Positions 6,079 through 34,290 of a stretch of 64,000 bases of DNA are shown one piece after another. This DNA is from Pyrrhoderma lamaoense. Its lineage: Eukaryota > Basidiomycota > Agaricomycetes > Hymenochaetales > Hymenochaetaceae. Within the stretch, counting starts at the first letter, position 1; every line of letters begins with the position of its first letter. Where the stretch lies: positions 1,488,001 through 1,552,000 of the forward strand of contig NBAZ01000003.1 in assembly GCA_002794735.1 (NCBI GenBank). Reading direction: 5' to 3'. The translations under genes were made by a program, and so were the position numbers. The notes beneath the pieces are model-generated. The model saw nothing but the letters and a program-made list of their open reading frames with translations. It made no database searches and was not told where the DNA came from.

Positions 6079-7527
6079 TCAGTCAGACGAGTTGATAACA
6101 TCATCCGTATGAGCCGTAGTTGCGAAGCCTACGCGGCTGTTTGTCGTATCAAACACAGAGTAGAAGCGCTCAAGGAATGCGAACCCATTGATGAAGTCAA
6201 GACCTTGTCCGCTGTTAGTCCCAATCTAAGGAAATCATGGGTTAGTATGTCAAACAGTCATATAATGTATTGATACTAACATCTCCGACCACGAGAAGGC
6301 TTTTTGAAAAGGAATCAGATTAACTGAATAAGACACAATTTTACTAAAGCTCACATATCGTCTGCAGCACCACCAACGGCGGAATTAAGTGCACGAGGCC
6401 ACGTTTGCGCATCTTTTGTGAACTCAAACGTGGTGTCACCGATATTGAAAAACAAACTCTGAAGGTTCGCAAAATCTTCGGGAGAGATAGACAACAAGCC
6501 AGATGCCGAATCTGGAACGGCACCAGTAGCAGCGGTGTAAGCGTTAAAGGCATCTGTTGCGAGTAGAAGAAGGGTTGTTCCAGTGTCAACAATTCCTGCA
6601 GTGGAAGATAGGATCGTCGTTCCTGAACTTCCATATGTGATACTTTGGTCTATTCCCCAAAACTCTGACGCGGGAGAAGTAGCTGTGATAGGGAAGAACT
6701 GTACATCCTGTGTGATCTTGGTACTGTCGATTCCACCGAATGTCATCTCACCGTTTGCAGAGTCTTCTGTCGTAGTGGGAGCAAAGAATACCCCAAGTAC
6801 TTCTTCTTCTATCTTTCCTTGGGAAAGTAAGTTATCTGAGACAGTTGGGATAGTTCCTAGTGGATTGGTGACTAGGGTCCCCTCTGTGAGATCAGTTGGA
6901 CCAACACCAAGGATACCGTCCACTCCTTGGAATCCTTCAGATATTAAGGCAACTCCAATTTTCTGACTTTTAATGACAAGATCTGGAGCAAGGGTCACCG
7001 TATCTGTAACTGTAGAAATTGAAGTTATCAAGGTCGATTCAACAAACTCAGAGGCATGGTAAGGTAGAATCACAAGATTGTCCAACAAAAAATCCTGAGC
7101 CATACTGAACGGCCATAGGCTCAAGATCTATCTGAGTGGATCCTGACGGTTCGAATGGAGTTCCTGCTCCCACCCATGTATTTGAAGAACCTGTATCGAT
7201 TATCAAGTTAAACGCCGTCGCAGGGCTGCCGACGCCGACGCTTGCCACGTAGGTTACTGCTTGATTGGTAACGGAGAAAGAACTCTGTCGTTTAATTAGC
7301 GGAGCTGTAGAAGCGCCCTTCTTAATGTTCACTGCATGCTCTCTTAAACTTGCGATACGGGCTCGATCCAACTCTGGAATTGTACTTCCTGAAGCGTTGA
7401 CTCTTGTAGCAAAGGGTAACGTCGCCTTGGATTCACGAACCTGCACTATGTTTCTAGATGCAGGAGGGGCAGCTGATACGTACAACAAGAAGTTGAGTAA
7501 GATAGCGAGGAAGAAAGCGCTCGTCAT
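6079..7527 (-). CDS. Secreted pepsin-like aspartic protease (A1 family, polyporopepsin-like)
   Basis: Four exons (7527-7074, 7009-6355, 6299-6281, 6225-6079) give 424 aa, with phases consistent throughout. A signal peptide (ending YVSAAP) precedes a propeptide that ends in LIKR, a Kex2-type site near residue 80. The mature enzyme carries both catalytic motifs, LIIDTGSSNTW and GIVDTGTTLLL, a YGSG flap-region motif, and the C-terminal block INGFAFLERFYSVFD. The predicted mature chain has no cysteine, as in polyporopepsin-type basidiomycete proteases. The third exon is a 19-nt micro-exon that restores the conserved strand LLVVGDIGTNSG. An AT-rich TATATAA at about 7574-7582 sits some 50 nt upstream of the start. 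Likely an extracellular acid protease. Confidence 0.9.
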
Positions 7528-10500
7528 GATTTAAGGGAACCGGAGCTGGGGAGTCAGCATTATTTTGACTCAGGTTATATATGTCTGGTCTATAGCTTCT
7601 CTACATCTCGAAGTCAGACCAATTTTAACAAGATCTCCCTTCTATAAACAAACTTCACGAGTAGTGAGAAAAAAGCCAGCACTTTGCCAAGCATTTCAAC
7701 CTATCATCGTCCAGAGTATATAAAGAAGCTGTGTGTGCTACGTTGAAGGCTTTCAAATCAAATTTAGAATGAGAGAAGTAGACGAAGACGAAGACGATCA
7801 AAGAATCCTTATGGTTAATTAGCAGAGAGTAGTGTGTGTATACTTGTGATTACCGGATCATATAGTAAGCTTCAGAAAGCTAACGATATAAAATAACACC
7901 TTCTTGGCGTACTAGAACCCAAATACTGCGTGCAAGTGTTGTGTATAATTGTGTATAAAACATTCATGTGTTTAAAGCGATTGAGTCAACTATTACTGCT
8001 ACTTAATAAGTTCACGACTGCAAGTATTGATTCATATACTCACGGGATGGTCATTCCCTACCATAACCTTCTTGTTATGAGTAGGAAGAAAATGCGATTA
8101 AGAAGTAGCCATATAGATTTTTATTTCTTAAGAGCTTAACCATTAACATAAAAAGGGTGAGATTAATCAGTATCTTCTAGCTCTTACTATGTATCTGCGT
8201 ATTTGTTTTTTTTACTGCTTTTTCGTTTAGTTATACACAGTTTTGACCTATAGATGTACTTATTCACTTTGGCGAAAAAATTCAAATTACAAGCTGTTAT
8301 ATGTGAAAATTTACCTTCACTGTTTGCTATCGACATGGTAAAGCTATGCGTACCTTTGGTACTTGTTCCGTCCCTATGGAAATAAGAACCGTATTTAGCC
8401 TGAAAACAAAGTGCATCCTCTCAAGACACATAATCTCCATTTTGTACAATTACTTGCTTCTATCTATGTCAGATTCTAACATAGACATTCTTACTAGCAA
8501 ATTACGTATATGTCTTGAAGTATGAGGAGGAAAGGTCATATGGGCAATGTGAATCTGATATTCGCTTGACTAGAGGTGAATAATATTTAAAGCTACAGCC
8601 AGATAGCTCGATTAATCTCTGTGACATATGTCAAGATGCTTTCTTATCTGGGTGGTAAACATAAAGTAGAGAGATCCATCTTTATTAGGAGGGTTATTTA
8701 TATATAGATAACTCAGCTCATTAGCTACACACTGAATAAGAATTATAACAAACTGGGCATATATCTTTTCTTACTACATATCACCCACGATAGACACTTT
8801 AATGTAAATTGGTTTCAAGTAACCCGCCTTGAATTACGACCAAGGCATGCCCGCGAGTATCAGGGTGGCAAACCCTTGTGCGTCCACTTTTAAACTACGA
8901 TTTGTATTCGTGAGAACACATAGTTATGTATTAAATATATGACCTATTTACTATATGCACAAACAAATGTATTAGGCAATAGACCCAGGTAGCGAAACGA
9001 TCGAGTCCTAGCCATCTGGGTGATGATTTAATCATCCATATAGATCACTATCTGCATTTTGTCCCCATGCCCTATTAGAACGGTCTGTTATAGACTTCTT
9101 TTTCCCCTCAAAACAGTACTCGACTACTATTAGGCCCCCCTTCCCCAAAGTACTACAGTCATGTTCTCCAGTTATGCTTACTTTAATCGGAATGTCAACA
9201 CTGCATCCTGCATGTCAGACAACCATGCAGTTGTGATGGTTTCAATGGTATGTTGCTAAGTGTATGGTAGCCTCTACTTACATCTACGGCTCAAGAAATT
9301 GAGGACTGCGCCAAGATTCTAAATTTTTCATCTAATTAAAAAAAATGTTTGAAAAGATTCAGTGATATCCGGCTCGATCGGCCTGCTTTATTTGGGAGAT
9401 ATTAAGCCTAGAATAGTAATCACTGGTCCTCGTTCCGAACACCTTTACTAGTACTCTTTGTGCCAGTGATAGCGGCGGGCAGTGTTAGTGATACTTTAAT
9501 GTGAGCTCATAACCGATAGATACATGAAAGTCCGGCAAGAATAATCATACTAATAGAGGTAAAATAGTAAGGGCATTGTCGATTTGGGGATAGTTATCTT
9601 TATACCCTGTAATTTATCATATTTGAAAACAACTCTTACATGCAAGAGTTGAGTGTGTCAACGCAGCGCCATCATCAGAAAAAAAGTAAACGCATCAAGA
9701 TGAAAGATAAGCTATCATTATGTTAGATATTTTTAATAGGTTATTACCCGAGGACAAGTAGTGCATACAGTTTTACAGCTCATTGAACCACTTCTGTCAA
9801 GTAAAGTGCCAAAAAAAAAGGTATCATGACTATATGGAGCGACCTAAACGCTCCAGTGGAGACCCCACGGAAGCTCGGGTAGGTAAGGAAGGGATCGGAG
9901 AGCATAAATTCGTTTTAACATGCGGGACCATTCCCTCCTCGATGATTAATAGGGCACGCGTTATTGTAGTTATAGTGTCATAGTGCACCGTAAGCTAAAA
10001 GTACTGAGAACCAGAAATAATGGAAAATGATAGGAGATAAGCGAAGCAGAGAAGTCATCATCGAAAGACTGAACAGAGAGTTGTCTGAAGATCTAAGGTA
10101 CGAGATTTAGATGCGGGAAGACTTTAGTTAGCGTATGTCATCTTGATGAAAGCTTGTCTATATGTGCCTCGCCGAGAAGTGACGAAGTAAGAAGATGAAA
10201 GCAGCACATATCAAAAAAAGAAGTTATACTTTCAGATTAGTCGGACCAAAGAAAAAAAAAAAAGGAAACGTGTAGTTTCTCTCTTTTTCTTCTGGGGGGG
10301 GGGGAAGAAAGTATGCATCCTCTTTTTTCTTCAGTGACAATGATGAAGATACTATGTGCTAAGTTGATGAATTCTACTTTGTGTTTGGCAAGGTCCTCAG
10401 AATACACCGATAAGAAGATGAAGTATCTGAGTTGAATTTATCAGAATCCACCGAGAATGATTCAGGATCTTCGGGGATTCGGGACGAAGAGGGGGGCGAG

Positions 10501-12551
10501 GGTTGTGCGAAAGTGCATGACGCGCTTTTATATGGATCCCGGGATGTACTATATGGTGACATTTGGATCCAAGGCTGTTTCAAGATGAGGAAAGTGGTGA
10601 TCAGTTGATATACAACATGTAAGATGAACATGTGCACGCAGAGCTGCTCATCAGTACTAATCATTACCATTCAGGTCGTTTTGTGTGATCCACTTTTGCC
10701 TCGATGACAATATTGACTTTTGAGCTTTATGTATCAAAATGGCACTTGGATCCGAGCCGACGCCACTATCCCGTCCAATGAGTGCTTTTTTTTGACTGGA
10801 ATCGAGTTTTAATCAAGGTTCTCCTAGGTTACTACCGGTTTGAACAACGGTGGACGTTAGACAGCCGCAAGAGGATTTGACTTTAAGATGAATTGGGCTG
10901 ATTCACATCTGCGTTGTGTGTGATACCCTCCTGTCTAACGGGAAAAGGCAATCGGTAAATTCAGACTATTGATTTCGGGTTGCAAGGAATATGCAAGTTT
11001 GGGTCTTGAGCCAGAGCGGCTATAAACCCGTTGCGTATGATATGATTGAATAGATAGAGCACCGAGGAGAAGAGGTGTACCATGAAGGTTGGGGAGTGTT
11101 CGATTCACTGAAATACATGGATTGTTACCCATTTCCCTTAACGTCGCCATATCCCCGTGTGAGTCAGCAGAGGGTGGCAGAGAGAAATTATACATTCATC
11201 ATCATCACGTATGCGAGGTGAGCGAGAGTCAATCTGTCAACTTAACACAGGTGATAAGGACAGAACAACGATTTAACGTTTACTCTCTCATAAACTCCGA
11301 ATATGGAGTGGGGGATCCAAGTAGATGGCGGAACACATTTTAAGGTTTACTTGTACTCGTTTACACAAGGTCGCTTAGTATGAAAAAGTTTAACAGCTTT
11401 CCTCTCTCATCATGGATGATTCCTCATGCATTTGAATATTAAGCTGAGTGAGAGGGGAGGAGGTTTGATTCGCGTTGACAATGATGGGGCAGATTGCTGT
11501 GTTAGCACGTCCAGCTTTACTAAAACAAGGTATCCCAGATGGACTAAGTGGCGGCGTCTCGGAATACATACACGGTTTAATGATATTCTATTGCCGAGAG
11601 GAGCGCAGTTACATGGCCCTTTTTCATCATTTTATTCTCTAATTGTTTTGAATAAAAAAATTGCAAAGACCTGACCATAGAGCGGGAAAGTTTTGATGTA
11701 AACAAATAAACCGCCAGGGTATAGATATATCAGTGGAGTTGCTGCGTACACATGCACATGCACATGCATAAAGGCCGCCCTGGCCATTGATTATTAAAAA
11801 AAGATTTTTTCTGAAAAATGAGAGGTGCGAACGAATAGATAAATTGGAGGGATAAATGAGATCGAGTTCGGTTACCAGAAAAGGGAATATTTGATGACGA
11901 GATGAACATTCGCACGCTTGGGGAACCCGAGGGAACCAGGCCCAAAGGAAGCAGAGTGAGCGAGTGACTAGATCAGGTCACATACATTCACCCCATCTCT
12001 TTCATCCGCTATCACGTCCTCAACACCGTCCTCGACGCCGGCAACACCTTTCTTACTTACTTTCTTGCCTACCCCTGACGACCTTTCACGTTAACGCTGT
12101 CGACCTGCTAGTTACCTGTCAATCGTTTACCTCTGTGAGGTTCTCGGGTGATATTGCCATTCTGCATTACTTGGCCACAGCCGACGCCATCGAGCACCGA
12201 GCACGGAGGGACCCCAAGGGGGTCAAGTAATCACAGATTTGTACCCAAACGATTTACTCTATTACCCAAAAAAAATAAGAAACACCAGACAAATTCACAT
12301 CTATTTTTCGAATTTCTTTGGAAATCTATCTCACGAGTCATTGCCCTTTCGCAAATAACAATTCATCTATCGCCTCATTGCCATCGCTTCATCCCTTTCT
12401 AGGATTTTATTACTCTTTACTACTCACAATCCCCCTCTCTCCCGCGGGACCCCGTTTATCCCTTTAACCTCTGCTCAACACAAATCAACACATCCCTCTC
12501 ACTTACTTTCCTCAGAAAGAGCTCTGAGCACAACTTTGCGTTCCGCCCGCC
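7528..12551. other. Long intergenic region with promoter of the G-alpha gene
   Basis: About 5 kb without a supportable gene. Short ORFs occur (for example 9783-9983 +, 10374-10670 - with a Ser/Pro-rich end) but none shows a domain or splice logic. Contents include an 11-G run at 10294-10304 beside an A-rich run, a (CACATG)n run at 11749-11768, and, just before 12552, a C/T-rich leader typical of fungal 5' untranslated regions. Confidence 0.4.
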
Positions 12552-13750
12552 ATGGGGGCCTGTGCATCCGTACCGGACCGCGCTGAAAAGGAACGCTCGG
12601 ATGAAATTGACCGACAAATAGAGGAGGATTCGAGGCGGTTTAGGAAAGAATGCAAGATTCTTCTGCTTGGTCTGTTGATATTTTTCTGTGTACATACCTA
12701 TCGTTATTTAGACGATGCTAACACAATTCTATCGTTGCAACTCATAGGCTCTGGAGAGTCAGGGAAGTCAACCATTGTAAAACAAATGAAGATTATACAT
12801 CAGAATGGGTTTACTCGTGAAGAATTGTCAACGTATAAACTCACAGTCTATCGAAATTTACTAGAAAGTGCTCAGGCAATCGTTCTTGCGATGCGTAAAT
12901 TGGGTGTCGACCCAGTTTTACCCGCGAACCGAGTTCATGCGGATCTTATAATCGATTCCAAAATTGAGTCTTCTTGTGTGACATTTGGTGAAGATGTCGC
13001 ACAAGCCATCGATGCGCTTTGGGCTGACCCTATCATCCCCAAAATTATGGACCATTCAAGTGAATTCTACTTAATGGACAGCGCGTCGTATTTCTTCAGC
13101 GAGGTCAAGCGAATAGGGAAAATAGGCTATGTTCCTACAGAAACCGACGTATTGCGTGCACGTCAAAAGAGTACGGGTATCGTTGAAACTAGGTTCAACA
13201 TGGGGCAGCTAAGCATACACATGTTTGATGTCGGTGGACAACGGTCGGAGCGGAAGAAGTGGATACACTGTTTCGAGAGCGTGACGAGTATCATTTTCTG
13301 TACTGCTCTGAGCGAATACGACCAAGTTCTTCTGGAAGAAGCTGGCCAAAATCGGATGGTGGAAAGCTTAGTCCTCTTTGAAAGTGTTATCAACTCGCGA
13401 TGGTTCCTAAGGACAAGTATTATCCTTTTCTTGAATAAGATCGATGTTTTCAAGAGCAAACTACCCAAGGTCCCATTAGAAAAGTATTTCCCTGAATACA
13501 CGGGTGGCCCGGATATCAACAAGGCAGCGAAGTATATTCTATGGAGGTTTATGCAGGCCAACAGGGCAAGATTAAGTGTATATCCTCAGTAAGTCACTTA
13601 GTCGTCATTTACAAGCATAGAAGTCTATATCTAATTTGCCTCCTTTCTAGCTTAACACAAGCGACTGATACAGGAAACATTCGACTTGTTTTCGCAGCAG
13701 TCAAAGAAACAATCCTACAGAATGCACTCAAGGATTCAGGGATTTTATAA
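12552..13750 (+). CDS. Heterotrimeric G-protein alpha subunit
   Basis: Three exons (12552-12669, 12748-13588, 13651-13750) give 352 aa, the usual length. The N-terminus MGACAS offers Gly2 for myristoylation and Cys4 for palmitoylation, so the protein should sit on the inner plasma membrane. Intron 1 interrupts the P-loop codon for the first Gly of GSGESGKST. Other nucleotide-binding elements are intact: RARQKSTGI (switch I), [12 protein letters not shown] (switch II), FLNKIDVF (NKxD) and TQATDT (TCAT-equivalent). The C-terminus ends KDSGIL and lacks the Cys at -4 that pertussis toxin modifies. It couples a seven-transmembrane receptor to cAMP or MAP-kinase signalling; which fungal subgroup (Gpa1-4) needs a phylogeny. 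Confidence 0.97.
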
Positions 13751-17105: not shown

Positions 17106-19001
17106 TTAACTAACACTAGGAGAGATCTTCTTCAGCAACTCATTTCCTTCCTCAATCCACCAACGATCAGCAGCCTCATCAGCGTCGTACGAAAACTGTT
17201 CGACGTTCTTCTGACGATCAGCCCATTGATTCGGGTTACTTCGGCCTTCCTCAGCTTCAGATGATCGTACCTCTTCTTGACCGCTACGGTTACCCTCCTT
17301 TTCAACCAACACGCTCCCAGAGTCTCCTTTGCTGCCAACTTTCTCCACATCAACAAGGTAACGTCTTCTATCCAATTCCATAGCCTCCCGCATTAGCGCG
17401 TCACGCGCACGCTGTTCAGGGCCGTCGGGCAAGTGAAACACACGTTGGTTCATCCTTGAGCTTGCCTGCGTTTTGGCTGTACGTGTGTGACGGAGCTTTT
17501 CGTACGCTTTCAGTAGAGGGTGGATCTGAGCTGGGTGAGTTAGATGGGAGAAGAGAGATCCGAGGACAGCTGCATCTTCAAATGCCATTGCAGCTCCTTG
17601 GGCGCGGTATGGCTGTGAGTTGATGAGAGCATATGTGTTAGATAGATAGGACGGATAACCAAGGAACGGAGAACAAGGGCAGCAGAGTCATAATAAAGGG
17701 GAATTGGGGAGCGCGGTTGTATTATATTAGTATTTGTATATGGATTAAAGTAATTTATCACAGATGTATGATAATAGGTTATTATATTGTGATGCGATCA
17801 AAAGTTGAGCACTGACCAGCATTGGATGACAGGAATCTCCGAGGAGAACTACGCGCCCGTCAGCGTGAACCCAGGTTTCAAGCGGCTTGCGGTCCATAAG
17901 TCTCCATTTGAGAGTCACCGCAACGTGAGAAAGTAGTTTTCGAATCCTTTAGATGAACATAATATTTGTTTCAATTTTACTCAGATTATCGAGTTTCGTA
18001 TATAAAAAGTAGATAGTAATTTATTTACTTACCGAGGATCATAATCCTCAAAGTCGGCACGTAGTTTATCAGCGCTACCTTCCGCAGTCCAGGACTCAAC
18101 CGAACCATCGTCGGGATGAATCATTACGAGATTATACTCCTTCTTGTTACGCTGTGGGTGTTTGGTTTTAAAGTTTTAAAGGAGTGAAATGTATAGATAT
18201 GTTTAGACTTTATGGTAGATGGGATCAATAAGGTACCGAGCTTACGATACAGTATGTCATCACGTGGCGATTAGGTCCCATCCAAGCAGTCATCTCAGGA
18301 GTGTCAACAAAAGGTTTGAGTTCTGGGTCATTTAACATGACTTCTGTAGGGATGATCGCACGATATGCTGCATCACCGGTTGGTTCAGCATAATCCGGGC
18401 GACCGACGACAACATTTCGAACTATAGACTTTACGCCGTCAGCACCTATGATAAGATCTCCGTAGATAACCTCCCCAGTGGTCAAAGTTACAGAAACTTG
18501 TGGATTAGGAGTTGGGTCAACAGATTTCACAGTCGAAGCAAGTCTAAGTTTGACGCGAGGGGAAGAAGAGGCAAGGTCATAAACCATTTTGTGTAAATCC
18601 GCGCGGTGGACGTGATAGTACGGAGCGCCATGAGAACGACGCATTTCAGTACCCCATCGGGTGCGCCCAACGATTTCACCATTATCATAGCGCCTGAAAA
18701 CGATGGCTTCTGGTTCTACAGCTACTGAGGCTAATTGCTCTCCCAGACCCCAACGTTCAAATAGACGCGATACATTCGGAGAAACTTGAATACCAGCACC
18801 CACTTCGCCAAGTTGACGTGCAGATTCAATCATAGTGACAGTATGTCCAGCTTGGGAAAGACAATGTGCAGCAGCAAGACCTCCAAGTCCACATCCTATA
18901 ACAAGAATATGTAGACGCAAGGCAGCTTCTCGACCTCCATAGAGATGAGTATTAGCAGCGTCTCTCGGGGTATTAGCAGTTGATGGGATGACAGTAGGCA
19001 T
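17106..19001 (-). CDS. FAD-dependent monooxygenase (salicylate-hydroxylase-like)
   Basis: Four exons (19001-18246, 18151-18033, 17946-17817, 17612-17106) give 503 aa with clean phases. The protein has the class A flavoprotein hydroxylase signatures: GCGLGG in an N-terminal Rossmann fold (residues about 33-45), the DG motif in YGDLIIGADGVKSIVR, and the GD motif DGRVVLLGDSCHPM followed by PYRAQGAAMAFEDA. Such enzymes use NAD(P)H and O2 to hydroxylate, often with decarboxylation, small aromatic acids such as salicylate, or tailor secondary metabolites. The C-terminal about 100 residues are charged and unusually long. It is divergent from the PLP enzyme at 19770 with a 768-bp shared upstream region, which hints at co-regulation. 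Substrate unknown. Confidence 0.93.
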
Positions 19002-19769
19002 GTTCGATGTTAATATCGAGATTGCGGAGTATTCATTTAGATAGTCTATTTATGTTCACAGACTCTTGATTTATTCTGGCTGAATATTCATCCACTTTGC
19101 AAAATTGAGTAAAAGTCCATGTTCCGTTTTCAAATAAGTAGGTACCCAATGACATAAGTACGACAGAATTGGAATGTTACTAGATTCAGTGGGTATAAGG
19201 TGACGCCTAGGTGGCTGCATATGAGCGCCTGAAGGAATATGCATAGTCCTAAAGAATGTATTACTGACCAAAGAAGTGATACGACCACGAGACCAAAATG
19301 ATCACGTCACAATGTTCCATTCAAAAGGTACTTAAACGGGCGAAGTTATGAGACAATATGAGTTGTCGACATTCTATTGCTGTAGATTGACAGAGCAAGC
19401 TTCTTAGACATCCTTTTGAAGAGCAACGAATATCGAGCATTGCTGCGCAGGTATCCAGTCATGAGTGATGTGTGAAAAATATAAATCGCATATGTGAATC
19501 GAACTAACCGTTTAGGTCTCAAGTAGCGGTGTTTGAAAAAATTACCATATAGGGTGTTCATGATACGAACCTGTGATTTCTATCGACACCCAATCAAAGT
19601 AAGAGGTTTATCGTAACTATCTAAAGTGAATTTTGTCGTTTATCATCGTGGGCAAATAGATAACTAAGAACACTGATCCTGAATGACTCGAATTCCGGTT
19701 GCTTAATCACACTCAAGGTTGATATCTGCCTTTGCTAGGGACCTACATTGTATATACTCTGCGCAAAAA
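19002..19769. promoter_or_regulatory. Shared upstream region of the divergent monooxygenase and PLP enzyme
   Basis: 768 bp between two divergent start codons, with no supported ORF. By position it must contain both promoters. I see no unmistakable binding site. Confidence 0.5.
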
Positions 19770-21503
19770 ATGGCTGAACAGACTACTCTTGATGTTGAGA
19801 AAGCGCGATCACAATTCCCCGCGCTAGCTGGAGATTTTATATTTGCTGATAATGCAGGTGGCTCTCAATGCTTGAAAACCGTAGTTGACCGTATCTCGGA
19901 TTACCTCCTAAATACAAACGTTCAGCTTGGTAAGCTCCGACATTGATTCTTTAGTAACATAACATCATGATCATAACTTATCAATTTAAGAAGTGAATTC
20001 TAATTCAATAACGTAGGTGCTGACTATAGTGTCTCGGTCCAGAGCACGGAACGAACTGCAGAAGGCCCAAAAGCAACAGCAGAGCTTATAAATGCTTCGT
20101 CATCGGATGAAATCGCTTTCGCTTCTAGCTCCACACAGGCTTCTGAGAATCTTGCTCGTGCTATTGAAATCGATATACTAGACGGCGAAGAAATAATTAT
20201 AACAGGAGAGCATGAAGGTGGGAAGATATTTGTAATATAATAGATGTGATGTTTAACAGGGATTAACGTACATACAGCTAATGCAAGCCCATGGAAGAAA
20301 TTGGCAGGTCGCCGTAGCATCGTACTCAAGACTTGGGCTCATACACAAATCCCATCCCAGCCCAACAATCCGTATGCTGTGGAGCTCTCCGTTGATTCGC
20401 TTCTTCCGCTCATCAGCTCCAAGACCCGTCTCGTTGCATTCACGGGTTGCTCAAACATCATAGGGTCTGTTGTCGATGTCGAAGGCGTGATTAAAGCCGT
20501 ACGAACAGAGGCAGCTAAGCGTGGTGCTCGTAAAGTCGAGTTTTGCGTAGACTGTGTTGCATATGCACCTCACAGACGTATCGACGTCAAGAAATGGGAT
20601 GTCGACTATTGTTTCTTCTCATATTATAAGGTAATATATAGCGTACACTCATTTAACTTAATGGAAAGAAAAAACTAATAAATTAATATTATAAACTCTT
20701 CTTTCCTTAGGTATATGGCCCCCATACGTGTGCTATGTATGCTCGAGCCGCTTGTCTCGAGAACTCGCTTAGCGCCCTTACACACCACTTCCTGCAAGTC
20801 GACAAAGTCGCATACAAGCTCAACCCTGGAGGTGCAGGGTACGAACTTACTTACGGGGTAGCTGGTGTCTTGCCGTACATTCGATCATTATCACCTACAG
20901 GTGATATAGATGATGCCTTCACACGTATCGCAACTCATGAACAAGCCCTCCTTACACCACTGATCGGCTACTTGACAAGCCCAGAAGCTGATGCTCGCGG
21001 GGTTCGCATAGTAGGTAGCGATGAAGTAAACCTTTCTCGTGTGCCTACTGTGAGCTTCGTCGTAATTGGCGAGCGTTCTGTTCGTAGTCCAGATATAGTA
21101 GCTTACTTTGACAAGAAGGGAAAGGTGAAGTAACCCTTATTTTTTTGGACATTTTCTTTTTTATCATTTTTTACGCCCCTTTGACCTTTGACAGGGCCGC
21201 TTCAACTTTTAAGAAGTAAAACAGAAATACTTAATAGTGACTTTACTGTCCCTCCCTACCGCTTAATTCAACCCCGTTTTATTTTCTCTGGGTCACATTC
21301 ATTAAACTTATCTATTGACGTCGCAATCTCAGATGGGAATACGTTATGGTCATTTCTACGCCTATTCGCTTGTCAGCAACTTGCGACCAAAAATCGACAT
21401 CGATGATGCTGTAGTTCGCATCTCGCTTGTTCATTACAACACTGTGAAGGAGGTTGAAGTACTTGTTGCGGTCCTTAAAGAAGCTCTCGAAACTCTCCAA
21501 TGA
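19770..21503 (+). CDS. Class-V PLP enzyme (cysteine-desulfurase-like / kynureninase fold)
   Basis: Five exons (19770-19929, 20017-20217, 20278-20630, 20711-21124, 21333-21503) give 432 aa. The start MAEQTTLDVEKARSQFPAL is preferred over an in-frame ATG at 19719. Conserved features are FADNAGGSQ near the N-terminus, TGCSNIIGSVVDV, a PLP-binding region with VDCVAYAPHRRIDV, and the Schiff-base lysine in YCFFSYYKVYGPH, exactly at an exon end. The C-terminal block is GIRYGHFYAY. It fits the cysteine-desulfurase-like subfamily of fold-type I enzymes. Known relatives split C-S or C-C bonds; UstD of ustiloxin synthesis belongs to this class. The last intron (208 nt) is much longer than the others. 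Specific substrate cannot be deduced. Confidence 0.93.
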
Positions 21504-24480: not shown

Positions 24481-24488
24481 TATAAAGG
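24481..24488 (+). promoter_or_regulatory. TATA box of the repeat-peptide precursor gene
   Basis: TATAAAGG lies about 99 nt upstream of the precursor ATG at 24580, a normal distance for a TATA element plus a short leader. It suggests an inducible, strongly transcribed small gene. Confidence 0.5.
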
Positions 24489-24579
24489 AGATACGATACC
24501 AGTATAACTGAACTTTAGTTCAGCCCAATATCCTAAACCCACTCTAAACCGATCTCCTTACCTTCAACCTCCTATAGTC

Positions 24580-24902
24580 ATGCGGGCTTGCTATCTCGTC
24601 CTAATAATGTCTACAATTATCCTATCGGTGTCTGCAGCCCCCGTCCTTCCCCAAGTGGTAAGTAATAACATTGTTCAGAGTGACATGTCTAGTATAATAA
24701 TCAACTATACCATCAGGAAATCAGTTCCGTACCATGCACTAACCACAACAAGAGAGACGCGGAACCCTTATCAGACACTTTCAAACGAGACGCAGAGCCT
24801 CTTTCTGATACGTTTAAACGAGATGCCGAGCCACTAGCTGATACGTTCAAACGGGATGCTGAACCACTGAGCGACACATTTAAGCGGGATGCTAGTAGCT
24901 GA
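24580..24902 (+). CDS. Kex2-processed repeat-peptide precursor (secreted)
   Basis: Two exons (24580-24657 and 24717-24902; intron 59 nt, GTAAGT..CAG, phase 0) give 87 aa. The first exon is a signal peptide (MRACYLVLIMSTIILSVSAA). After a short spacer containing one Cys (EISSVPCTNHN), five KR dibasic sites bound four copies of a nonapeptide: DAEPLSDTF in copies 1, 2 and 4, DAEPLADTF in copy 3. The chain ends KRDASS. The layout matches Kex2-processed repeat proteins: alpha-factor precursors, Ustilago Rep1, and ustiloxin-type RiPP precursors. Kex2 would cut after KR and Kex1 trim the basic residues. A Ste13-like aminopeptidase could remove DA, leaving EPLSDTF. The core lacks Tyr and internal Cys. 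Function (signal, surface peptide or modified peptide) is unknown. Unspliced, the repeats fall out of frame, so ORF callers would miss it. Confidence 0.9.
24750..24899 (+). repeat. Four 33-bp coding repeats plus a partial fifth
   Basis: Units at 24750-24782, 24783-24815, 24816-24848 and 24849-24881 each encode KR plus a nonapeptide. 24882-24899 encodes the closing KRDASS. At nucleotide level the units are much less alike than their peptides: Ala uses all four GCN codons, and Ser is TCA, TCT or AGC in the three identical-peptide copies. Confidence 0.95.
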
Positions 24903-25314: not shown

Positions 25315-28054
25315 CTACGAATGAGTATCCTTTATTGCGCCATCCCAAACATAGTCTTTGGCCGCCCATTCCGGTAGTCGAGTTTCAAATGCACCTAGAC
25401 TCACGCTCGTATAGCGTAATGCATGCAAAAATATGTATAATTTTTCAGGTGCAGGGTCCGGATGTAACGGAAGGTAACACTCCGGGCAGTATAAATCATC
25501 CTTATTATCTCGTTGTACTTCTTTTTCGTCTTTTTGTTGGTCCTGCTGATGTTCTTTTGTAGCTGAGAAATCCATATCTTTACCATGCGTATTAATGTTT
25601 ATGTTTGGACTAGGCTCGTCGCTAGGAAGATTAGATCGAGAGGTTGTCGAACCGGTTTTTTCAAGTGGATTGACATCTAAGGCTGAGGTGGGCATCTTCG
25701 CCTCGGTTGAACTAACCGCGTGATCTCGGTATTTTCATTGAGTAGAAAAGAAGAAGCGGTGACAGAGACGTTCTCAGCTATCCGGGTATCCACCTCAATC
25801 TGTGAGTCCTCGACATTTCCTACATTCAGCCCAATTGTTGCTGTTGTCGTTGCCGTTGGCTGTTCCTCATGCTGTAATCCGCTATCACATCTTCAGGAAT
25901 CGATCTATTTAATTTCGTCGGACGCCCTTTTACTCGCTTCCCATTCACTCTCTCAGCTTTTTTCGGCACTCTGTGTTGTTGTGCGTATGCCATCTCGATA
26001 AATTTAGGTGTAAGGGCACCTTGAGCACGAAAAACCACATCTTTCCATCTTCCCCAGTCTTCATCTTCGTCCTGTATATGTTCAAATTCATAATTAAGGA
26101 CACATGATAAACTTTCTCTCAGTATATAGCATTTATAGTTATCGGTAGGGAAATCAAACCTTCTGGTTCCTCATTCTCGTGATGACACCCACAGCTTCAA
26201 GACTCAAAGGAACGGGTGACCCTAATCCGATATCGTGTCCTGTCTCACGAGGCAGCGATTCTACTTCACCTCTTTCGGCTTGTTGTCTTTGCTTCTCTAG
26301 TAATGCGGAAGAAAGAACCGTGGACTCTTCTTTTGTTCTCCACGCTGGATTAGCCACGCGGTTTTGCTTCGCTTTCTTTCGCTTAGAACACGGAGTCGTG
26401 ATAGATTTTGATGAAGAAATCGAAGTCGAACTCGAGAAAATCTTCGGTACATCTGTTTCACTATCGAGCTCCTCTTGCCGTACATCCCCTTTATTATCCA
26501 TGCCAGCAGTGTCGGTTTCGAGTTCATTGGTTTTAACTGCCACCACTTGTTCATTTGTCCCAGTTTCTTGCTCACGGACGTGTCCTTCAGCTGTAGAGTT
26601 CTCGAACCCTGGAGGAGGTCTTGGAGCTTCACGTTTCTCGGTAGGTATAAGGTCAATACCACCACGTCCAAGATTGCTGCCCTAAGAGATATGATCAGTC
26701 AAGAAAGTAGATTTGAGTATTCAAGGAGGTACAAACCCATATCTTTTTCTCAGCATAGACTGAATCGTTAGCAATAGGGTGTCCCAGAAATTGAAGATGG
26801 ACCCGAATTTGGTGTGCTTTAATAGTTCGCTAGGTTTAGAAGCAATGCCAAGCTGTAACTATAAACCGCTTACATCGACCAGTGAATGGTCTACCTTTGA
26901 CATTCTAGTTAGAGCTGGATCAAGATTGGAGCTTATTGAGAAATGAAACTTACAATGTACCACACTAGTGTCAGTGAGTTCGTCGTAATGCATTCTGGTA
27001 AAAACTGTTTTAGCTTCCTACAATTGTATAAGAGACTTTTCATATCGATCAAGCAAGTAGCTCACCTTTCCCTCTGGATGAACAATATTAAGACCCATTT
27101 GTCTATCTATAGTTAATAGTGGCTCTTCACATGTTATTACATCCCTACAGATAGTAGGACAAAAATGGAATCCATGATCAGTATATCAATCAACTTACAA
27201 GCTATGACAAGCTATAAGAGCATTTATCACTCACTCAGGGAACTTTCCCTGAACTCGGGCAACATACTCTTTCCGAATCGTGCCAGAAGTAAACTCCGAT
27301 GTCAGAGTTCGGGCACGGTCAGCAGAAAGTGCGATAATCATAAGTCCCGACGTGAGTCGGTCTAGTCGGTTAACAGCTAACAGAAATATTAGACTCTATG
27401 AAAACGCCATATATGACGCCAATGATTTGGAGACACATACTGTAAACATTTGAGAAACCGAAGTCGGTTTTCAGAATCTCTACTAAAGAGTTTTTGAAGT
27501 AACGTCCGGCAGCATGGACGGGCTAATGTGGGTAGATTCCATTAATCCAGCTTGTTGATATAGAAGATAAGCCCATAATAAAGACTAACGCACGATGCTT
27601 CCCGGTTTATTTATGACGATGAAGTCCCTCTCTTTATCATGATATAAAACTTCGACGGGAGTAGACGTTATAGGCGGTTCATGCCGATGAACGATGTTTC
27701 TATAATATTTTCAGATAAAGCTACTTTCCTTAATTGTTATAACACATACTCGATGGTGTCCCCATTACGGATTATCGTTCCTGGGAGAGCAGTCTTCCCA
27801 TTAACAGTAGTAACGCCAGACTGTAGTGCATATCTCTGGCGCTAGGAGCTAAGTGATAAAACTTCTGCGTTTTGAGAGGAACTCACATAGTATTCTACAC
27901 TTCTATCTCGAAACTCTGTTGACACAACCTCTAAAATCTCCCGATCAAACCATCGGGCCTTCGCATTAGTCCTATAAGGGTACCAGTACGGCGTAACTTT
28001 TTTGAGACCCGGTCGACCTCTATTAGAAACCTTTGGGTCGTTGGAAGTTGTCAT
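25315..28054 (-). CDS. RluA-family RNA pseudouridine synthase (Pus9/Rib2-like)
   Basis: Many short exons. The start at 28054 reads [17 protein letters not shown], and exon 1 ends at 27887. An S4-like segment ([18 protein letters not shown]) precedes the catalytic block [16 protein letters not shown], with the RLD aspartate present. [21 protein letters not shown] and [12 protein letters not shown] follow. A long low-complexity insert comes next, with a basic [10 protein letters not shown] patch. The end, [20 protein letters not shown], is the usual C-terminus of fungal members. These enzymes modify uridine in cytoplasmic or mitochondrial tRNA (Pus9 acts at position 32). The first motif residue is Asn where His is common. 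Splicing around 25700-26040 is unresolved: the apparent exons differ in frame, so an extra intron or an indel is needed there. Confidence 0.85.
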
Positions 28055-30662: not shown

Positions 30663-33600
30663 TCAAATCAATTTAATCCTCTTCCTCATCGCCCGCATCT
30701 TCATCGTCTCCACCTTCATCCTCCGAAACTTCAAGTCCAGCTCTTTCATTCGTTCTTTATCCCTCTTCCGTTTCGTACTCAATTCTTCTAAGAATACTAA
30801 CAAGTCTTCTTGTTCCTTCTCAGATTCTTGACTCTTTTGCTTGATGGAAGCTAACTCAGCCTTGAGTAATTCTAACTCCTTCTTCAAGGTATCGACCTAA
30901 ATATTTTAATTCATGACTCAGAAAGCGTTATGTCATGAGCTCGTTCAGATGACATACCTCAGTTTGCTTGGCAGACTCAGATACAGAAAGAGAGGACAAT
31001 TTGGCTTGTAAATCAGCCACCTAGTTGAGAGGCATCGTTCCCAAGCGAAATTATAAACATAATACTGTAGGGCTTACCTCTGTTTGATTAGATGAGGTAG
31101 ATGTTAGTTGTGCTTGAAGTTTTTCGATTTCAGCCGCCTGAGTCCTTACAGCTTCACGGAGGCTTGCGATTAACATAGACGTTTCCGCACTTTCGCCTAA
31201 AGACAGAGAGGCAAATATTTAAATCGCAAATACACGAGACAAGAATATATGTTTACTGACTTAACGATGAACTCAAGGTATCCGGATCCAAACCCAGACC
31301 ACGTTGTATGGTATCTGATAAAAAATAAGTATCCTACAGGACGATAAGAGAAACAATGACTCGGTAGATAACGCACAGTAATTGCTTTTCCAAAAGTCAA
31401 CGAAGGCCCAATCGAACCATATCTCCACTTCCATGCTTTCATGGTTGTCCTGACCGGAGGAAATCGTATTATGCAACGCAGGAAAACGATATGGAAGGAT
31501 TATATCTTCGGCCCTATTGCTCTAAACCGTTCATCATCTCTCACATACATCATACGTCCTACAAGCGCATCTACGCTTAGTCGCGAGATAATCGCATGTA
31601 TGGTTTTTCTAGGAAACTATAATTCAGTAAGATAGAGAGCGTCTGCTTATAAGATTATTTACCGCGTTATCTCTCCTGGCTCCCGATTGAATTCATAACA
31701 GACTCCCAATAAATATGTACAGAGTCCCTGTACTAAAGGATCGACATCCGAAGTTTGGTTGATAGGCTCCACCAACTTTTAGATGATGTCAATACAGTAA
31801 GATGGAAAGCACAGAATTATATAGTTACCATTCCAATGCCACCATTTTCAAGAAACTCCCGCACAGAGCCTGGATCTTCCCATAACCACTGTATCAGTAG
31901 TGAGAGATACACTATGGTCAAACGGTCCCACTCCCGCGTCTCACATTCCGTATCAGAAGAGACAGATCGTGCCCGATTTAAAAGTGATAACTGGAGGTGT
32001 TCGGCAAGTAAAGCGATAAGTGTTTGTGGTTCATCTTCATCTTCTCCATTATCAGCCGCAGCCTTTTCTACCGCAGGTGCTTTGGAGCCAGCCGGAACAC
32101 CGTCCGCTGGGACAAAAAACTGGGATTGTTGTTGAGCTACTACGGAAACAGGTTTTATTTTCGCGCTAGTTGTTTGCAGTATGGGGATGAGCGTATGAGA
32201 GATGCAAAAAGAAGTGAAGCAAGATGTGTCGATAGTGATGCAGACAGATTTAAAGGAGTAGATGGTGGTGCAGTGAGGCACTTTAAGAGTGCGAGACTCG
32301 GACGAGGTGCAGTAGGATCTATAGTATTTTGCGAAATTAGAATATAACCCCACAATAGGATGATACAATTTACCATCAGGAGGAATCATAGCTTTAAGAA
32401 TGATTACTCTTAAATCTTCTTTCCGGGTATAGTTCTTGAGGGTTGATCGTTAATGTATGAGATCGCTACGTGTAATAGAGAAAATACCTCAAAGACTGTA
32501 GCCCCAGAGGTTCTCAATAGCAAGGCTTCTTTGTCCTTTGCCTTGACTCGTCTAATCCGATACCTTGATATTCACCCAGAACTACGAGCTCTATCAAAGC
32601 ATCCAAAGCTACCATGGTTCCAGCTTATCCCATTCGTCTCCATTCGTCTCCGGGACTGGTACATAAGGTGTTACGATTTGTGAAATAAAAGAATAGTTTA
32701 TGGTGGTTGGTAACAGTTGAAGTGACTAAACATTCCTTATTGGATGAGAATAAGATATATAGCCAATATCTAATGTCAAACTTACATAAGTCTTAAGCGC
32801 TGTTGGCGCTCCCGAAGCTATGGTAAGTTCCACCAAACAACGTGTGAAGAGAGCGGTCTCTGCTTCCTATTTAGTGTAAGGTGTATCTCTGTCCATAATC
32901 AGTGGAATTTGTACGTACATTGCTCCCTTTCGAGCCGACTAGTAAACCTAGAATCCCGATTATTAGCTTGACATTTGCTATCTTCTGAGTATTCCAGTAT
33001 TGCAGAGCGAAATCCTGAGGGGTGGGTTCGTCCGGGTGAAGATTATTGGGAAATAAGAGTTGCGCAGTGAGGAAACCTGCTAATCCCGTCTCTCGGAAGT
33101 ACGTTTGATTGGATACATTCATCCTCAACAAACCATCGACACATGTCAAACAGTCCTGGACAATGACGCCTCCTTCAACACCCCCCTCATTCTGGATAAT
33201 ACCGAATAATTTATCAAATGCACCCTCAAAAGCGAACAACTTCTGAATATCGGGGCTTTGCGAAAGCAGAGATTGTATAAGGATCAACCCTTCTGTATAA
33301 GCAATGAGTTGCTGACCAATCTATGTCAGATGCACATACCGTTACGAATTATTTCTCTTTTATCATCAAGTGTAGCTAACACACTTCCTGGAGCATTCTG
33401 GGCTTTCAAAAAGTAAGCCTGTACAGGTTGTCTCCTATTATGCAATAGCAACGCAAGAAGTTGAAGAGAAGAATATTTGACATATGCATTTGAATTTCCA
33501 AGTAATACAAATAGTTTTTGCACAGGTCTCTCAGTTTTAAGAACTTCGTCCGAGTATTTAAGCCCGAGGAGTCTACTCTCCGCGTTGGGGTTTGCATCAC

Positions 33601-33886
33601 CTACATCACACAAAGTAAGTAGAGTTTCTATTACTGCCTTCCCTATGTCTGCATCGATTTCGGAGTCATTTTCCAGAACATCCAGGAGTCCCTGAAGGGC
33701 ATACTCTCCAACATCTGCCTTACAGTCTTTGGACAGCCCCTTAAGCGAAAGGACAGCAGCTCGGCGGTCAGCGAGAAGAGTTGAGGGTGATAATCTCCCA
33801 GATAAGCGTTGAATAGTCTCAAGTGCTGTCTGAGGCGTACTCGCCGGTCCTTTGAGGGCATTATATGTTTGAGAGAAGAAATCCAT
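30663..33886 (-). CDS. USO1: Golgi vesicle-tethering protein Uso1/p115, two apparent frame breaks
   Basis: Starts at 33886 with MDFFSQTYNALKGPASTPQ and has many exons. Uso1/p115 tethers ER-derived vesicles at the Golgi with Rab1 and SNAREs. The armadillo-like head is clear: RRAAVLSLKGLSKDCKADVG, YVKYSSLQLLALLLHNRRQP, GLILIQSLLSQSPDIQKLFA, then EIWFDWAFVDFWKSNY. A coiled-coil tail (LREAVRTQAAEIEKLQAQL, VADLQAKLSSL, LKKELELLKAEL) leads to an acidic end. Two shifts are seen. Near 31500 the frame hits TAA after RFRAIGPKI while the homologous continuation ILPYRFPAL is in another frame. Near 30745 the typical AGLEVSEDE acidic tail (stop 30673) is one frame from the coiled coil, which otherwise runs to a stop at 30663. 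These are either assembly indels or real lesions. Confidence 0.88.
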
Positions 33887-34290
33887 AGGCTATCACAAGA
33901 CTGACGCGGTTACACGTCCGTGTAACTACCTCTAATTAATTGAAGTTGTTAGCCATTCTAAAAATGGAAACGCGGATCACAGCACTGATCCTAAGAATCA
34001 GAGTTGGGCGAATATCATTCAATATGACTGACAGATCTAGAGATTGCCGTACGTTAATATAGTACTCTTGAATTACAGTTTAAACATCTTTCATGTTTCA
34101 AATACTCCGTATAAGCGAGTCTTAATACCCCTCTTCGTCGCAATCGAAGTTCTTATCCAAATTCATAGTTATGTACCATACAACGTCTGATTGATAATTC
34201 AAGTTGGGGATAACATTGGGGCAATATTATATTCTTTGTTTACAGCGAGAGAAGCCATGATGTTATGAGCTAGCCTGAGGTACGTCGGTC
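33887..34290. other. Intergenic, upstream of Uso1
   Basis: About 400 bp of AT-rich DNA between the Uso1 start and the 3' end of the first small Zn2Cys6 gene. Nothing else seen. Confidence 0.4.

Follow-up and report, generated by a model that had tools for sequence, protein, structure and literature searches.

A small spliced gene in Pyrrhoderma lamaoense, at positions 24580-24902 of a 64,000-nt stretch of DNA (the window, C3:1488001-1552000, on contig C3 of a 72-contig, 30.65-Mb assembly), probably encodes a Kex2-processed repeat protein (KEP) from which short peptides would be released by kexin and trimmed by a dipeptidyl aminopeptidase. That it is a real gene, presumably transcribed and spliced, is almost certain. 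The product, an 87-residue precursor, begins with a hydrophobic stretch and a spacer of 17 residues; four nonapeptides, each preceded by KR, follow, and after a fifth KR the chain ends in a short tail. It can be written as MRACYLVLIMSTIILSVSAA-PVLPQVEISSVPCTNHN-(KRDAEPLSDTF)2-KRDAEPLADTF-KRDAEPLSDTF-KRDASS. By sequence comparison, it is a member of a conserved family known so far from the Hymenochaetaceae.

Gene model and repeat array

The coding region starts with an ATG at 24580 and ends with a TGA at 24900-24902. Features are as follows, in window positions.

24481-24486, plus strand: TATAAA box, 99 nt 5′ of the ATG, read from the sequence; a promoter role is presumed
24554-24573, plus strand: CT-rich stretch between the TATAAA box and the ATG, read from the sequence
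24580-24657 (78 nt), plus strand: exon 1, with the signal-peptide-like start and the first spacer residues
24658-24716 (59 nt), plus strand: intron, GTAAGT...CATCAG, placed from the sequence and the alignment with Fomitiporia mediterranea
24717-24902, plus strand: exon 2, with the remaining spacer, four repeat units, fifth KR, tail DASS, and stop
24750-24782, plus strand: repeat unit 1, KR-DAEPLSDTF
24783-24815, plus strand: repeat unit 2, KR-DAEPLSDTF
24816-24848, plus strand: repeat unit 3, KR-DAEPLADTF, with an S-to-A variant that the Pyrrhoderma noxium protein shares in its own unit 3
24849-24881, plus strand: repeat unit 4, KR-DAEPLSDTF
24882-24902, plus strand: fifth KR, tail DASS, and stop codon

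As a preliminary description of this DNA had claimed, the repeats are out of frame unless spliced; the unspliced ATG frame gives an 85-aa open reading frame (ORF) ending at a stop at 24837, and the repeats lie in another frame. Eleven GT-AG pairs (40-150 nt) would join the ATG to the repeat frame, with a GTAAGT donor in the 24658/24716 pair alone, which corresponds to the 59-nt intron with consensus splice sites proposed earlier. The other 10 pairs were rejected, having donors less like GTAAGT and, in most cases, cutting into the signal peptide. As a yardstick for intron length, 13 junctions of two neighbouring genes were used, 10 of which could be solved as GT-AG introns of 42-90 nt (two of the 10 with two alternatives; the other three of the 13 gave no GT-AG solution for the peptides entered). 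The proposed length of 59 nt falls inside this range. Indirect support for the 24657/24717 junction comes from the EISS just after it, which aligns with DISS of the F. mediterranea protein, the other relatives being too diverged there. A 54-aa reverse-strand ORF over the repeats (24713-24877, GTG start) was rejected as a mirror image of the repeat array.

For the signal peptide, also part of the preliminary description, hydropathy reached a peak of 2.65 over 11 residues from residue 7, and the AAP at residues 19-21 was invariant in 5 of 5 aligned sequences (the precursor and its four relatives). On the basis of hydropathy and conservation, residues 1-19 or 1-20 (..VSAA/P) are taken as a putative signal peptide. 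The array itself agrees fully with what had been described: five KR codons, starting at 24750, 24783, 24816, 24849, and 24882 and spaced by exactly 33 nt, bound four full units, of which three read DAEPLSDTF and one reads DAEPLADTF.

No tandem repeat in the window scores higher than the 33-nt array (Tandem Repeats Finder, 115). Across 30 dinucleotide-shuffled versions of the window, the top score was 34 to 54, and the array is therefore more than a chance repeat. Relative to copy 1, copies 2, 3, and 4 have 11, 11, and 13 of 33 bases changed, with one amino acid changed in total. Random placement of equal numbers of changes gave a mean of 21.1 amino-acid changes and a minimum of 14, and none of 5000 trials was as low as 1. 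Constraint was judged by this placement test; nonsynonymous divergence (dN, 0.04-0.10) was left unused, being above zero even for pairs without an amino-acid difference, and synonymous divergence (dS) was undefined (-1) for five of the six copy pairs, which is read as saturation. Given such drift at silent sites with a single amino-acid change in all, we infer an old repeat in which selection on the peptide probably preserves each copy.

The layout was compared with two definitions of KEPs, as worded in the parts of the surveys drawn on here. Umemura 2020 calls for at least three tandem repeats of at least 8 aa between KR, KK, RK, or RR sites, none above 100 aa (PMC7329392); the precursor has four repeats of 9 aa between its five KR sites, judged by the wording of the definition. 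Le Marquer 2019 calls for at least four fragments after cutting at KR or RR, at least three of them alike, with repeats making up at least 15% of the length (PMC6339444); here, six fragments follow the signal peptide, four of them alike, and the core accounts for 36 of the 87 residues. KEPs also have an N-terminal signal peptide, which both surveys recognised with SignalP. Pfam gave no family for the precursor at E 0.001, and the matches of the four relatives were all under curated cut-offs. A PDB sequence search returned three weak matches (E 0.2-0.57) that were given no meaning, and Rfam and tRNA scans of the 64-kb window returned no match each.

Relatives in the Hymenochaetaceae

To identify relatives, about 5.8 billion proteins were searched at E ≤ 1, which returned three; a second, alignment-based search with a profile of these and the query, in which 7986 candidates were scored, returned at E ≤ 10 the same three and only one more. 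All four species belong to the Hymenochaetaceae, and the proteins, annotated as hypothetical or uncharacterized, carry RDAEPLSDTF units.

Fomitiporia mediterranea FOMMEDRAFT_131165, annotated protein
Sanghuangporus weigelae ACEPAI_8240, annotated protein
Pyrrhoderma noxium PNOK_0013200, annotated protein
S. sanghuang ACEPAF_5352, annotated protein

The gene had been called cryptic and liable to be missed by ORF callers, a description that finds no support in these four relatives, in all of which it is annotated. All five aligned sequences have RDAEPLSDTF, without change, at residues 50-59. Unit number and state differ among the relatives: a longer tail and decayed outer units (e.g. RDTEPLSSAS, RDTESLSKAL, and RDVESLSITF) mark the proteins of F. 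mediterranea and of both Sanghuangporus species, and several dibasic sites in the relatives are RR in place of KR. The third unit contains LADTF in both the precursor and P. noxium, a variant absent from the other three relatives. This shared variant suggests that the units correspond by position, without recent homogenisation, although a single residue in common is little to go on. In the S. sanghuang protein, about 52 additional residues precede the methionine that lines up with the other sequences, probably from a misplaced start annotation.

When the genome was searched with the precursor, only its own two exons matched, so the gene is apparently single-copy within the sensitivity of that search. 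No KEP was among the matches from Coniferiporia, Phellopilus, Phellinidium, and Schizopora, all of which have other proteins in the database; an unannotated small gene would give the same picture.

Proposed processing and possible role of the peptides

Partner genes were sought by a six-frame profile search of the same genome, which gave three matches to the kexin P-domain at two loci and two matches to DPPIV_N at one locus. In four of four units of the precursor, the dibasic site is followed by DA and then EP, which is the X-A/X-P dipeptide pattern of the STE13 signature; some outer units in the relatives start with DT or DV in place of DA. On a pathway modelled on alpha-factor, parts of which Vogt 2022 demonstrates for agaricomycete KEPs (PMC9769878), the precursor would enter the endoplasmic reticulum via its signal peptide, kexin would cut after each KR, a Kex1-type carboxypeptidase would trim the trailing R and K, and a Ste13/dipeptidyl peptidase (DPP)-IV-type dipeptidyl aminopeptidase would remove DA, perhaps then EP. 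The expected peptides would be acidic, linear, and short: DAEPLS/ADTF first, EPLS/ADTF next, and LS/ADTF after that. LADTF could formally also lose LA. The product had previously been put as DAEPLSDTF or EPLSDTF. EPLSDTF need not be where trimming stops; because EP is itself an X-P dipeptide, LSDTF and LADTF are possible as further products. Kex2 processing of the precursor is very probable and X-A trimming of the released peptides reasonably likely, while trimming onward to LSDTF can be put forward only tentatively. Secretion, cleavage, trimming, and the role of the peptides are all steps that we infer from sequence.

Several points weigh against this reading. For both kexin and DPP, the profiles recognised pieces of exons, and DPPIV_N could represent a Ste13-like enzyme or another DPP-IV protein. 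The relatives that were found are all annotated proteins from a single fungal family. As far as they are drawn on here, neither the two surveys nor Vogt 2022 name a receptor or a proven role for basidiomycete alpha-factor-like precursors, and knocking out six KEPs of C. cinerea produced no apparent phenotype, which counts against a strong role in the fungus's own signalling in axenic culture (PMC9769878).

The peptides most likely serve outside the cell, as signals or in interactions, in the manner of alpha-factor-like peptides of basidiomycetes and not as a mating-type pheromone; within this, signalling to the producing fungus itself is conceivable but somewhat doubtful. A mating function would make the product an alpha-type sexual pheromone read by a Ste2-like receptor. 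Its KR and X-A dipeptide layout is that of ascomycete alpha pheromones, and the basidiomycete yeast Trichosporon oleaginosus is described as having an ascomycete-like alpha peptide (PMC6339444). Against this, the eight STE3 matches fall into one region at C2:746-749 kb and another at C3:86-90 kb, and the C3 region is some 1.42 Mb away from the KEP gene. Basidiomycete mating uses STE3 receptors, and because an STE3 system is present and unlinked to the KEP gene, a mating role is disfavoured and considered very unlikely. No STE2 (PF02116) match was found, but none of 14 control genomes matched either, so this result is uninformative alone. Still less probable is a ustiloxin-type (dikaritin) ribosomally synthesized and post-translationally modified peptide (RiPP), with cores cyclised by UstYa-family oxidases, even though such precursors share the design of a signal peptide with Kex2-bounded repeats (PMC7329392) and UstYa matches are present in the genome. 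All six of these lie on C5, C6, and C11 and none on C3, where a diverged or intron-rich copy could escape a six-frame search; the UstYa (DUF3328) gene that a ustiloxin-type RiPP would have close to its precursor gene was thus not seen here. The core contains neither Tyr, the usual crosslinked residue in ustiloxin-type peptides, nor Trp. With no UstYa match on the contig and such a core, the peptide is more probably linear than a cycle of the ustiloxin type. Equally improbable is a coat of cleaved peptides on the hyphal surface like that formed by the Rep1 peptides of Ustilago maydis. A Kex2-type repeat precursor without a Pfam domain over cut-off would suit such a coat, but Rep1 units are longer and hydrophobic, and the cores here have 9 residues and are acidic; Le Marquer 2019 moreover lists Rep1 without a STE13 signature (PMC6339444). 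The preliminary description had likened the gene to pheromone, Rep1, and ustiloxin precursors; the Kex2-type repeat layout stands, and the latter two analogies are weak.

Targets in other organisms (host plant, competitors, or grazers), rather than in the producing fungus, are a closer rival, which we nevertheless regard as rather unlikely. Vogt 2022 favours this for the C. cinerea KEPs, given knockouts without an axenic phenotype (PMC9769878). The central core is constant between genera here, which would be unexpected for an arms-race peptide, although this is a weak counterpoint. A bolder form of the signalling role, and a more unlikely one again, is that the peptides are hormones of the Hymenochaetaceae, a family of linear molecules five to nine residues long, with a receptor class new for basidiomycetes and a function outside mating, for example in mycelial coordination or fruiting; as part of that same unlikely proposal, the hormone would occur in two forms, LSDTF and LADTF, fixed by position in some members. 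The precursor offers a tractable case for the role of such peptides outside mating, being small and apparently single-copy, with a core constant between genera and easily synthesised peptides.

As a separate observation, four of the UstYa matches fall within about 31 kb at C5:1048543-1079442, a possible ustiloxin-type cluster.

Gene neighbourhood and known precursors

The next gene downstream served as a marker of gene order.

25315-28054, minus strand: RluA-type pseudouridine synthase gene, multi-exon and convergent with the KEP gene

In S. weigelae, the KEP (ACEPAI_8240) and a pseudouridine synthase (ACEPAI_8239) have consecutive locus tags, both listed on a 2,590,621-base contig. Conserved gene order is thus supported for S. 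weigelae; F. mediterranea, in which both are listed on a 9,598,269-base contig, is compatible with it. The synthase, searched with a partly approximate query, showed 60-69% identity over 86-95% of the query to its six best matches (Coniferiporia, Phellopilus, Fomitiporia, Sanghuangporus, Phellinidium, and Schizopora), identities that point to a fungus probably of the Hymenochaetales but distinct from the species matched. The best 120 of 1385 matches were covered, and no P. noxium or S. sanghuang synthase was among the matches listed.

Elsewhere in the window, a G-protein alpha subunit gene (12528-13592, plus strand; PF00503, E 2.9e-114) lies about 11 kb from the KEP gene, with no functional link claimed, and its ORF appears to read through an intron. 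Also present are a eukaryotic aspartyl protease in two ORF pieces (6351-7530, minus strand; PF00026), a FAD-dependent monooxygenase-like ORF (18225-19049, minus strand; PF01494), a Class-V aminotransferase with introns (19770-21133, plus strand; PF00266 in the piece 20250-20678; two of three junctions mapped), and a Uso1/p115-like vesicle tether piece (31817-32449, minus strand; PF04869). ORFs 32871-33320 and 33326-33889 have no Pfam match and are perhaps part of the Uso1/p115-like gene.

The class to which the precursor adds a member is already known. Surveys of KEPs have covered 250 species and 1461 strains (PMC6339444, PMC7329392), basidiomycete KEPs with a STE13 signature have been described (PMC6339444, PMC9769878), and Vogt 2022 reports KEP peptides from four agaricomycetes, some fitting X-A/X-P removal, as well as the production of KEP precursors in Pichia pastoris (PMC9769878). 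The core string was not found in the literature searched, to which the supplementary tables and figures of the KEP surveys did not belong, and no paper in it joins KEX2, Fomitiporia mediterranea, and repeat. Since the Umemura 2020 survey took in Sanghuangporus, Pyrrhoderma, and Fomitiporia (PMC7329392), the family may well be listed already as a minor type in survey tables. The widespread type G-1 of that survey includes all three genera and is described as high in Tyr (PMC7329392); judged by this description, which the core does not resemble, the family is probably not G-1.

Among the closest known proteins are FOMMEDRAFT_131165, ACEPAI_8240, PNOK_0013200, and ACEPAF_5352, which belong to the same family, with RDAEPLSDTF units and a hydrophobic start ending in AAP. 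Ascomycete alpha-factor precursors of the Saccharomyces cerevisiae MFalpha1 type are alike in layout and in the expected Kex2/Kex1/Ste13 processing, but their core is unrelated by eye, and they carry a long glycosylated pro-region, whereas the spacer here has 17 residues. The basidiomycete KEPs with a STE13 signature (e.g. Pleurotus 1091723 and 1439342, and C. cinerea 490115), so far as their published descriptions were drawn on, share the signal peptide (putative here), the short, dibasic-bounded near-identical units, and the X-A/X-P dipeptides; their STE13-type cores end in Trp (..VAADW, ..PPSW, ..APSW), whereas the EPLSDTF/LSDTF core of the present precursor ends in Phe.
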